Of a stretch of 36,801 bases of DNA, positions 15,302 through 20,129 are shown in pieces (position 1 is the first letter of the stretch; every line of letters starts with the position of its first letter). The notes below the pieces were generated by a model. The model was not told the DNA's origin. It saw only the letters and a list, made by a program, of their open reading frames with translations, and made no database searches. Location of the stretch: the IMG/VR virus record IMGVR_UViG_3300030329_003531, positions 1-36,801 of that record, one strand, 5' to 3'. The stretch comes from a virus. The position numbers were made by a program, and so were the translations under genes.

Positions 15302-16057
15302 CTATTTTATACATATCCATGCAGTAAAATTATTCCACTTCCAAAAAATTTCACTATGCTTGAACCCTGCATTCTTAAATAATAAATTATTTTGTTCAAT
15401 AGTTAAAGGTACTAAAACACCTTCAAGTGATGCTTTTTTCCTGTCTATTTCTTCAGTACTATATCCGTTATCTTCTTTCATTGATAAATATTGTTCCACC
15501 ATTGATTGATTAGTTTCGGGAGTTGACCCAAGTACTTTTTCCACTATTATGAAAGCCCCGCCTTCTTGCAACATTTGGTAAACACATCTTAATAAATTTT
15601 GTCTATGCTCCATAGGAACAAACATTAAAGTTAATATAGAAGTTATTAAATTAATTTTTTTTGGATTAAATTTAGATTTGTCTAATGCTATTGGTCCTGC
15701 ATATAAATCATGTAAACAACCATTATTGAATCTTAAATCCCAATTATAAACATGAATATTGTTTTTGGTATTAGGAATCAATAATAATTCTTCTAACATA
15801 GGGTCACTTATTTCAGTTGCTATAAAATCATTGTTGGTACCTAAGTGCATTAGTGATTTAATAGCTTCACCACGAGAACTGCCTAAATCAATTATTACTT
15901 CATCATTTCCTATATAATTTTCCGCCCATTTCACTACAAGTTCCCTCATAACTCTATATTGCGGTATTGATCTATCAAGCATATTGTCAAACACTTTGGT
16001 TACTTCAGCATCAAATTCCCATTTGTCTTTAGGCATGGTCTTATCTAACTTTTCCAT
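15302..16057 (-). CDS. CmoA-like carboxy-SAM synthase, 251 aa
   Basis: CmoA converts SAM and prephenate into carboxy-SAM. Similarity to E. coli CmoA (from memory) is clear along the whole length: FDAEVTKVFDNMLDRSIPQY near the start, SAM motif IIDLGSSRGEA (55-65), EGGAFIIVEK (165-174), NGYSTEEIDRKKASLEGV (197-214) and the end GFKHSEIFWKWNNFTAWICIK split as in CmoA. Length 251 against 247. The E. coli Arg199, which holds the carboxylate, aligns with Lys208. No CmoB (the tRNA partner) is present. It follows a cytosine methyltransferase by 22 bases with its own AAAGG ribosome site, suggesting that its product feeds that enzyme. An ordinary methyltransferase of this fold is the alternative. Confidence 0.85.
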   Translation of the reverse strand: MEKLDKTMPKDKWEFDAEVTKVFDNMLDRSIPQYRVMRELVVKWAENYIGNDEVIIDLGSSRGEAIKSLMHLGTNNDFIATEISDPMLEELLLIPNTKNNIHVYNWDLRFNNGCLHDLYAGPIALDKSKFNPKKINLITSILTLMFVPMEHRQNLLRCVYQMLQEGGAFIIVEKVLGSTPETNQSMVEQYLSMKEDNGYSTEEIDRKKASLEGVLVPLTIEQNNLLFKNAGFKHSEIFWKWNNFTAWICIK

Positions 16058-16079
16058 ATTAACAACCTTTAAAATAATT

Positions 16080-17135
16080 TTATAATTTATATAATATATC
16101 TTTTTTTATACTCAATGCAACTTCTTTCATCATTAGAGGTGGTACTGCTCTTCCGATTCTTTCCCATTGTTTTGTAAAACTGCCTGTCAGTTTAAAATCT
16201 GTTGGGAAACTTGATATTGCTTTGATTTCGGGAATTGTTAATGTTCTAGGATATTTGTGATGATAATGACTTGGTTTAGTAGTAAGTGTGTTGCAAGATT
16301 TATTAGGAAATACAATTCTATGCGAAAAATATCTATCTTTACCATAATATTTTTTTGATATTGCCGCTAAGCTTGAATTATTTTCTTTAACTGCTCTTGC
16401 CCATAACATTTTTGCAAAATTATGTACTTCGTGATGTTCACCTTGTATTTCATCTTCGTAAGCATCAGCAACTATTCTTTTATAATTTTTAGGTTTAGGA
16501 AAAGCAGGGTCAATATTTAAATCATTTCTTGTAGCTACAAAAATCAATCTTTCCCGCATAGTAGGAACACCTAGTCTATCGGCTTTTAATATTTTAGCTT
16601 TAACATTATATCCAATATTTTTAAATTCTTGTAATATTAATTTGAAATATCCTTTGGCTTTACCTGTAACAAGACCTTTAACATTTTCGCCTATTATAAC
16701 TTTAGGTTGTAACCCTTCAGCTATCCTTAAAAATTCAAAAAACAAATCATCAACATATTGTTTGGTATCTGAATAACTACGAATTTCATTCCACCCTTTT
16801 TGTCTTTGTCCACTCATAGAAAATGAAGCACATGGTGGGGAACCATCAAGTATATCTATATCACCTACATCAAGATTTGTTTCTTGTAATATATTTTCGG
16901 GGGCAAGTGTTCTGATATCTTCTTTATTTAAAATAGTATTTTTGTGATTAAGTTTGTATACTTCTCTTGCCGCTTCTACAAATTCATTTGCCCATATAAC
17001 ATTCAATCCTGCCATTTTGTAACCAAGAGAAGAACCACCACAACCACTAAAAGTAGAAACAACTTTAAATTCTTTTTTAACTTCGTTTATTTCCCCCATA
17101 GAAGGAATTACATATGGTGGGTTAATTAGCTCCAT
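16080..17135 (-). CDS. C5-cytosine DNA methyltransferase with motif X Asn-to-Arg change, 351 aa
   Basis: All catalytic motifs are present: motif I FSGCGGSSLGYKMAG (29-43), motif IV GSPPCASFS with catalytic Cys102, motif VI ENVKG with Glu150, motif VIII RERLIFVATR (194-203), target-recognition region about 204-295, and motif IX RTLTIPEIKAISSFP (297-311). Motif X reads ERIGRAVPP, where the usual sequence is IGNAVPP, so Arg329 replaces the conserved Asn near the SAM pocket. The codon AGA is at 16151-16149. With a CmoA-like gene next in the operon, I infer that it transfers a carboxymethyl group from Cx-SAM to cytosine. Plain 5-methylcytosine formation is the alternative. Overlaps the ParB-like gene by 10 bases. 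Confidence 0.93.
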   Translation of the reverse strand: MELINPPYVIPSMGEINEVKKEFKVVSTFSGCGGSSLGYKMAGLNVIWANEFVEAAREVYKLNHKNTILNKEDIRTLAPENILQETNLDVGDIDILDGSPPCASFSMSGQRQKGWNEIRSYSDTKQYVDDLFFEFLRIAEGLQPKVIIGENVKGLVTGKAKGYFKLILQEFKNIGYNVKAKILKADRLGVPTMRERLIFVATRNDLNIDPAFPKPKNYKRIVADAYEDEIQGEHHEVHNFAKMLWARAVKENNSSLAAISKKYYGKDRYFSHRIVFPNKSCNTLTTKPSHYHHKYPRTLTIPEIKAISSFPTDFKLTGSFTKQWERIGRAVPPLMMKEVALSIKKDILYKL

Positions 17136-17635
17136 TCAAATTTACATTTAGGACATATATTTTTAGTTTCTATATGTTCATCATATTCATCAAAATCGTC
17201 AATGTCATTAGTGTCATCTATTATTTCAGTATTTTCACTTCTTGAAATGATGCTCAATAATTCTTTTATCGAATCATTTTCGACATTAGCATTATCCATT
17301 AATTCTAATAATTTACTGTCATCTTTGTGTGCCAATTCTGATAATGGGTCTAATGTCATTAATAATTTGTCAGCTTCTTCTTCGGTAACATCTAGTATCA
17401 ATACAGGTACTTTGTCTTGTGATTTTAATGTGTCTTGTCTTAAGTGTCCATCAATTAAAACTAATTCACCATTTTTTTCGTAAGCAATAAGTGCATTAGC
17501 AATTCCGATTTCATCTAATACCCCTTGCATAACTTCTTGTTGAAAAGGTGAATGTAACCGCCAATTTTTAGGATTAGCTTTTATTTCATTAGGATTAATT
17601 TGTCTTAATTCTTTGATTCGATTTTTTATTGCCAT
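17126..17635 (-). CDS. ParB/sulfiredoxin-domain protein with C-terminal zinc knuckle, 169 aa
   Basis: ParB-like N-terminal domain: INPNEIKANPKNWRLHS (13-29), VMQGVLDEIGIANALI (35-50), and the signature IDGHLRQDTLKS (61-72), then VPVLILDVTEEEADKL. The C-terminus ends CPKCKFEW (161-168), a half zinc knuckle after an acidic linker. Such proteins often accompany phage DNA methyltransferases and may guide or regulate them; some have nuclease activity. First gene of the modification operon. Its ATG coincides with the expected transcript start of an extended -10 promoter, and no Shine-Dalgarno site is visible. Confidence 0.85.
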   Translation of the reverse strand: MAIKNRIKELRQINPNEIKANPKNWRLHSPFQQEVMQGVLDEIGIANALIAYEKNGELVLIDGHLRQDTLKSQDKVPVLILDVTEEEADKLLMTLDPLSELAHKDDSKLLELMDNANVENDSIKELLSIISRSENTEIIDDTNDIDDFDEYDEHIETKNICPKCKFEWS

Positions 17636-18255: not shown

Positions 18256-18819
18256 CTAAATTCTATACATTTTTGGTCTTTTTGTAAAAAATTCAACATT
18301 TTTTAGATGTTTTAAAGGAACTTTATAGTCATCACCATGCCATTGTGGTGTCTGTTTATAGTTTTCCATATCACGAAATGATATATATCCTGCTATGTTT
18401 GCAGTAGTTATATCACTAAATTTAATCTTTTTTGTTTTTTGACATAAGCCATTAACAAAAATTTGAACACAATATTTAAAATTTTTAACTTTCGCTACTG
18501 TAAATTGGCTTTCAGAATACAATAAATTTAGATGTTTATAGCTATCAGCATAGGCACTTGTCTTTATTTCAATCTTATCATAGCCAATTTGGAAATCCAT
18601 ATCATCATATTGTCCTGCTTGAAATTCAAAATCATATTTAACATTATTAATTTCTAGAAACTGTTGAAACATTAACTCGCCAATCGAACCAATCAGAATC
18701 ATTTCTTTTCTCTTAGATTGGGAAAAGTTAAAGCGGTTATATTCGTATTTGAATCTTTTGTTTGAGTATATAACCGCTTGTTCTTTTATAGCTTCTGATA
18801 TGGTTAAACTTACTTCCAT
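18256..18819 (-). CDS. PD-(D/E)XK nuclease-like protein, 187 aa
   Basis: Shows the core of the restriction-endonuclease fold: helix with GSIGELMFQQFL (Glu48), strand FEFQAGQYDDMDFQIG with Asp75, then IEIKT with Glu84 and Lys86. These would form the metal site. The rest includes a Tyr/Phe-rich region and a C-terminal basic tail. I choose ATG 18819 because it overlaps the previous stop, rather than an upstream TTG. It may degrade host DNA or act in recombination. The modification operon next to it could protect phage DNA from it. Confidence 0.7.
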   Translation of the reverse strand: MEVSLTISEAIKEQAVIYSNKRFKYEYNRFNFSQSKRKEMILIGSIGELMFQQFLEINNVKYDFEFQAGQYDDMDFQIGYDKIEIKTSAYADSYKHLNLLYSESQFTVAKVKNFKYCVQIFVNGLCQKTKKIKFSDITTANIAGYISFRDMENYKQTPQWHGDDYKVPLKHLKNVEFFTKRPKMYRI

Positions 18820-18983
18820 TGATCCCAACCGCCCCAATTAACTCCACCACTTCTAGTTTTACTGTAAAATTTTCTAACTTTTTTAAGTGAATCTTCAGCT
18901 ATGGCTCTTTTCTTGGCTTGGTCTTGTTCGTAATCGTTTTGGAAATCTTGTTGTAATTTTTTTAGGTTTAATTTCTTAGTCAT
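18810..18983 (-). CDS. Small charged protein, 57 aa
   Basis: Starts MTKKLNLKKLQQDFQNDYEQ, a charged helix, and ends with GGVNWGGWDQWK, a Gly/Trp-rich tail. The ATG at 18983 overlaps the end of the preceding gene by eight bases. A TTG six codons upstream is less likely. The function is unknown. It sits between a small early-type protein and the nuclease-like gene. Confidence 0.65.
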   Translation of the reverse strand: MTKKLNLKKLQQDFQNDYEQDQAKKRAIAEDSLKKVRKFYSKTRSGGVNWGGWDQWK

Positions 18984-19343: not shown

Positions 19344-20129
19344 TTATACTTTGCCTTTAACAACTGCATTTAATATACCTTTAACTGATTTAAAATTACC
19401 AATATTCCAATCGGTATAGATTAAACTATGGAACAAATCGTCTATTCCCGAATCACCTTTTTGTAAATTTACATGCAAAGTGGGTTGGCTTATCTTAAAC
19501 CATTCGGGATATGTGTCACGAATAGGTTGTTTTTGTTTAGGTTTGTTTATCTCGTCCCATGTTGTACCTCTAAAATGTTTCCTAACATTACTTCCTAAAT
19601 AAGGAAACCATATTGTTTTATTATATTTTTTAGCTAGAGCAGTATGTGTATTTATCTGTACAACCTTTGGGTCATTAAACATCATATCCCTAAAATCGTC
19701 TAAACGATCTTTATAATGCAACATTCCTTTTTTCGATAAACAGAAATTAGCATCAGCTGCCATTCCCGATGCAACAATTTCTTCTTTTATAGTGGGATAA
19801 GCATATAACATAGGAAAACCACACTCAAAATCTACTTTATTTGTAGCTCCATAATTCTTCAATCTCTTTAAATCCATCTTGAGTATATCTAAATTCGTTG
19901 GCAATATTATAGGAACAAATTTTAAATTGAATTTCCTAGCTACCTCTTTAGCTTTTAAATAATCTTTAGATTCATGATTGTCTAATGTAAAAGAATAAAC
20001 AACAGGTTTATTACCTACACTTAATAAAGAAAATAAAACAGATTGACTATCTACACCCGCAGATAATAATACTCCTACTGAATTATTTTTATATTGTTTA
20101 GCTTCGGATTCTAAAATTTCTTTTAACAT
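19344..20129 (-). CDS. PP-loop ATPase, asparagine synthetase-like, 261 aa
   Basis: The N-terminal PP-loop reads VLLSAGVDSQSVLFSLL (20-36), matching the SGGxDS adenylation motif, followed by a Rossmann-like strand VVYSFTLDN and a KAKEVARKFNLKF helix. This is the fold of asparagine synthetase C-terminal domains and related enzymes, which activate a carboxylate with ATP and join it to an amine. No glutaminase domain is present, so ammonia or another amine would be the partner. Substrate unknown. The gene has no clear ribosome site. It precedes the iteron array in genome order and may work with the carboxymethylation genes, which is speculation. Confidence 0.75.
   Translation of the reverse strand: MLKEILESEAKQYKNNSVGVLLSAGVDSQSVLFSLLSVGNKPVVYSFTLDNHESKDYLKAKEVARKFNLKFVPIILPTNLDILKMDLKRLKNYGATNKVDFECGFPMLYAYPTIKEEIVASGMAADANFCLSKKGMLHYKDRLDDFRDMMFNDPKVVQINTHTALAKKYNKTIWFPYLGSNVRKHFRGTTWDEINKPKQKQPIRDTYPEWFKISQPTLHVNLQKGDSGIDDLFHSLIYTDWNIGNFKSVKGILNAVVKGKV

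Follow-up and report, generated by a model that had tools for sequence, protein, structure and literature searches.

A DNA record from a small tailed phage was found to carry four genes that very probably form a cassette for DNA hypermodification, consisting of CmoA, CmoX and CmoY together with a ParB-like accessory protein (Table 1). This reading rests on sequence identity, active-site residues and gene association, the reactions themselves having been shown for the homologues of Synechococcus phage S-B43 only. The window analysed is the whole IMG/VR virus record of 36,801 bases (G+C 32%), whose genes for head, packaging and tail are those of a tailed phage. In S-B43, CmoA supplies Cx-SAM, CmoX writes 5-carboxymethylcytosine (5cxmC) and CmoY, an asparagine-synthetase-like ligase, couples 5cxmC with glycine to give the glycine amide; this amide was present in the virion DNA and free 5cxmC was absent (Yang et al., Nat Commun December 2025, PMC12783734). 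The cassette described here is a diverged member of that published system, and the statement in a preceding sequence-only reading of this DNA that no natural example had been described is therefore outdated. What the present phage adds is an independent example of the CmoA-CmoX-CmoY cassette, in compact form and in a small phage for which the databases hold no close relative.

Table 1 Genes of the predicted cassette, and Gly-type C5-methyltransferases found beside CmoA in other loci.
Feature	Position	Strand	Length	Features or matches
CmoA-like Cx-SAM synthase	15302..16057	-	251 aa	TIGR00740, PDB 4gek/1im8
CmoX, predicted DNA cytosine C5-carboxymethyltransferase	16080..17135	-	351 aa	Cys102 in SPPC, Arg329 in motif X
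Accessory protein of ParB-CTPase fold; CPxC tail conserved at the C-terminus	17126..17635	-	169 aa	PHROG 620, AlphaFold/Foldseek
Amide ligase of the CmoY type, ATP-dependent, with one PP-loop domain	19344..20129	-	261 aa	PF00733, S-B43 CmoY homology
Gly-type C5-methyltransferases	L004 6813-7820, L012 6684-7682, L256 5165-6184, L257-L259 5983-6996			VGGVINQ, GSPC

The sequence-only reading had described three of these genes, namely the ParB-like, C5-methyltransferase and CmoA-like genes. All three were confirmed where it had placed them, with database matches far beyond chance, but the set was not complete, as the ligase gene had been missed, and this gene belongs to the CmoA/CmoX gene set. The ParB-like and C5-methyltransferase genes overlap by 10 bp, and the ligase gene lies about 1.7 kb upstream of the ParB-CmoX-CmoA trio, separated from it by small genes of no known function; the CmoA-like, CmoX and CmoY-type genes are all on one strand and inside 4.8 kb. 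Past the trio there is a gene at the position expected for the small terminase subunit, which also gives weak helix-turn-helix matches, followed by the gene for the large terminase subunit. An ORF at 18256-18837 (193 aa) resembles a PD-(D/E)XK nuclease by eye (YDDMDFQ...KIEIKTS). It was considered as a partner of the cassette and dropped, since no homologue was found in the loci compared, the phage collection, IMG/VR (single-sequence scan), Pfam or the PHROGs.

The C5-methyltransferase homologue matched PF00145 (E 7e-59), and its best PDB match was 8yf3, SpCmoX (E 5.5e-72, 245.8 bits), the second being the HaeIII methylase at 92 bits. In the 8YF3 structure, which is that of CmoX with Cx-SAM, Arg350 contacts the carboxylate (PMC12783734). 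All nine SpCmoX residues checked map to identical residues in the alignment, with R350 falling on R329, and F29, E51, F52, D73, SPPC99-102 and R329 of the phage protein are equivalent to SpCmoX residues named in the same work (PMC12783734). The protein thus combines the C5-methyltransferase fold, the Cys of SPPC, the motif-X Arg and the adenine and ribose contacts by which a CmoX is recognised. The target-recognition region aligned poorly with that of SpCmoX. The diverged CmoX of this phage may read another recognition sequence, which, if true, would be useful for DNA labelling. A separate observation concerns the CmoX of Erwinia phage vB_EamM_Y3 (L009 30409-32538), where an insertion of several hundred residues, intein-like in appearance, lies exactly before the catalytic Cys of PPC.

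The CmoA-like protein matched TIGR00740 with E 3.6e-40 and 138.1 bits, under the 193.3-bit equivalog cut-off, which is set for the bacterial equivalog, and the protein is accordingly named CmoA-like. The best PDB matches of the CmoA-like protein were 4gek/1im8 (CmoA/YecO, E ~1e-21); the matches of the three-gene set also included PHROG 4752 (E 1e-64). In the alignment Tyr39, Asp62, Gly64, Ser66, Ala70, Ile118, Phe137 and Glu164 of E. coli CmoA are kept, while Asp89, Asn90, Asp117 and Asn132 are changed and Arg199, which in the E. coli enzyme contacts the Cx-SAM carboxylate (PMC3663124), is replaced by Lys208. As SpCmoA, whose activity is proven, aligns a Glu at this position, the residue found there does not decide activity. 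Counted against the cassette reading are this replacement of Arg199 by Lys, the score under the equivalog cut-off, the distance of the ligase gene and the poor alignment of the CmoX target region.

The ligase scored above the cut-off of PF00733 and is 37.9% identical to S-B43 CmoY over 91% of the query; in the alignment with SpCmoY and further phage homologues, identities were 32–37%. It consists of a single PP-loop (AsnB-type) domain without a glutaminase domain, as expected of a CmoY, and therefore probably uses a free amine. The AlphaFold model (mean pLDDT 93.5) was matched by Foldseek to the beta-lactam synthetase and asparagine synthetase fold. The signatures NKPxQK and HxNLQxGDS of the small CmoY group are present, and both are absent from the longer ligase of Streptomyces phage TurkishDelight. 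Ligase homologues, where seen, mostly sit in CmoX/CmoA loci.

For this phage we infer from the homologues which reactions take place, which amine is accepted and that the modification is protective. CmoA would convert host SAM and prephenate into Cx-SAM. CmoX would flip a cytosine out of a short recognition sequence, Cys102 attacking C6, and would move the carboxymethyl group to C5 with its carboxylate held by Arg329, giving 5-carboxymethylcytosine; the CmoY-type ligase would then cap the carboxymethyl group with a small amine, the best guess for which is glycine or some other amino acid. DNA containing 5cxmC resists HhaI, as shown for the S-B43 homologues (PMC12783734). The proposal of the sequence-only reading that Cx-SAM feeds the C5-methyltransferase, which then writes 5-carboxymethylcytosine, is well supported, SpCmoX being the closest solved relative, R329 being equivalent to R350 and the Arg tracking CmoA as described below. 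Its further suggestion that 5cxmC is the final base is probably not correct, and an amide is more likely because this phage carries a CmoY-type ligase.

A pathway ending at free 5-carboxymethylcytosine, the ligase acting on something else, would agree with the ligase gene not being contiguous with the other three, and with S-CRM01 and RN05-S, in which CmoX stands beside CmoA and no ligase gene is annotated between or adjoining them. It is nevertheless improbable, given the homology of the ligase to SpCmoY with the small-CmoY signatures, the location of most of its homologues and the finding that S-B43 virion DNA held only the amide. In phage PaBG the same ParB-CmoX-CmoA order is followed by a ligase gene, and in Moraxella phage Mcat8 ParB-CmoX-CmoA-like genes adjoin a terminase gene.

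Single-sequence scans of IMG/VR with the CmoX and CmoA of this phage found no relatives, and profile scans of IMG/VR were used for this reason. The 80 sequences closest to the CmoX profile were all Arg-type at motif X, and 79 of them had CmoA in the fetched flanks; among the 80 closest to a Met-type methyltransferase, none did. Since one search pattern included the Arg, the IMG/VR Arg sample is biased, and contigs of GTDB genomes, for which the search patterns did not touch motif X, were relied on instead. There, CmoA was nearby in 34/37 Arg-type loci versus 0/41 Asn- or Met-type loci (L299 and L309 being left out of the counts), with a Fisher p of 5e-19 that overstates independence, as many of the sequences are mutually related, although the split spans several bacterial phyla. 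Two of the three Arg-type loci without CmoA are at contig ends (L277, L317), and the third has a ligase match (L316). The pairing of CmoA with the C5-methyltransferase thus tracks motif X, a relation that the sequence-only reading had proposed as a check.

These counts bear on the remaining alternative, namely a conventional SAM-dependent 5mC methyltransferase beside a CmoA-like protein that works on behalf of tRNA or to some other end. Both proteins are in broad SAM-dependent families and ordinary C5-methyltransferases are common in phages (1119 records match), but this alternative can be given very little weight in view of the Arg in place of the motif-X Asn/Met with its link to CmoA, the acceptance of Cx-SAM alone by wild-type SpCmoX (PMC12783734) and a record with neither CmoB nor tRNA genes. 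The earlier remark that no CmoB lies near the trio holds throughout the 36.8-kb record, although that record may be no more than part of a genome, and no tRNA genes were found in its 36,801 bases. As judged from the GTDB sample, which was not selected on motif X, a motif-X Arg predicts Cx-SAM use, a rule by which genome readers could separate carboxymethyltransferases from ordinary methyltransferases.

CmoX candidates have been reported in thousands (PMC12783734). In the bacterial contigs, Arg-type CmoX with CmoA (L273-L306, L308, L321, L324) was seen in Nonomuraea, Streptomyces, Verrucomicrobia, Hymenobacter, Spirosoma and cyanobacteria, and single Verrucomicrobia MAGs carry several Arg-type CmoX copies. 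Among the IMG/VR CmoA loci (L098-L175) there are many phage contigs without a CmoX-type match in the fetched flanks; C5 matches occurred in only 104 of all 176 sequences compared.

A different arrangement was found in Staphylococcus phages, vB-SscS-F1 and SPbeta-like, where CmoA adjoins a C5-methyltransferase with GSPC and a Gly at motif X. A scan disclosed four further Gly-type loci, three of them nearly identical, and all had CmoA (6/6 in total), whereas none of the Asn-type relatives (GNGWT) of these enzymes did. One of the loci, L256, also encodes a second C5-methyltransferase with Arg at the motif-X position. By this association, the Gly-type enzymes may form a second class of carboxymethyltransferase. 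They fell outside the published search because it used SPPC and Arg350 (PMC12783734), and the staphylococcal pairing of CmoA with a non-Arg methyltransferase goes beyond that report.

The ParB-like protein was matched weakly by Pfam but did match PHROG 620, with E 8e-11. Its AlphaFold model (pLDDT 84.6) was related by Foldseek to nucleotide-bound ParB/Noc structures (7bnk/6sdk, E ~1e-6), which assigns it to the ParB-CTPase fold. In the alignment the body of the protein varies, whereas conservation of the C-terminal tail, which mostly ends T-E-H-x-CPxCGYxWSG, is unusually high. A ParB-like homologue was directly upstream of CmoX in 45 of the 71 IMG/VR loci with room for one, and the CPxCxYxWS tail occurred in 64/80 CmoX loci versus 0/80 Met-type loci of IMG/VR. 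When 50,697 phage records were queried with the tail, only ParB-like genes beside CmoX were retrieved, those of TurkishDelight and Mcat8; diverged forms of the tail are present in Pseudomonas phage PaBG and Erwinia phage Y3. The idea that the tail is exclusive to CmoX systems was rejected, as four genome loci (L283, L309, L333, L339) have the tail and no CmoA match.

ParB-domain neighbours of CmoX had already been remarked upon, with no function assigned (PMC12783734); the conserved CPxC tail of these proteins goes beyond that description. A survey of the ParB-CTPase fold reported that in phages it occurs fused to methyltransferases and that CTP, ATP or GTP is bound (PMC12704722), and these two features make a nucleotide-switched ParB helper plausible. 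With rather low confidence, it is proposed that the ParB-fold protein could be a fourth component dedicated to the system. It would act as a DNA clamp switched by nucleotide and docked through its CPxC tail on either CmoX or the ligase, making the genome-wide modification processive or confining it to phage DNA. If true, enzymes that modify DNA would have a helper of a new kind.

Compared with the known systems, the cassette is closest to that of S-B43, with which it shares homology of all three enzymes (CmoX ~40%, ligase 38% and CmoA 26% identity), SPPC together with the motif-X Arg, and a single-domain ligase. It differs in that S-B43 is a large cyanophage and the present one a small tailed phage, and in that the order CmoA-CmoY-CmoX is replaced by ParB-CmoX-CmoA with the ligase gene upstream; the ParB-like neighbour and the diverged target-recognition region of CmoX are further differences. 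The bacterial tRNA cmo5U pathway (CmoA and CmoB) has a homologous Cx-SAM synthase, but its acceptor is 5-hydroxyuridine in tRNA, while here there is no CmoB and the predicted acceptor is C5 of DNA cytosine. Last, the M.MpeI N374K variant, as cited in PMC12783734, is likewise a C5-methyltransferase with a basic motif-X residue that accepts Cx-SAM; it is an engineered enzyme with Lys and CG specificity, whereas the CmoX of this phage is natural and has Arg.
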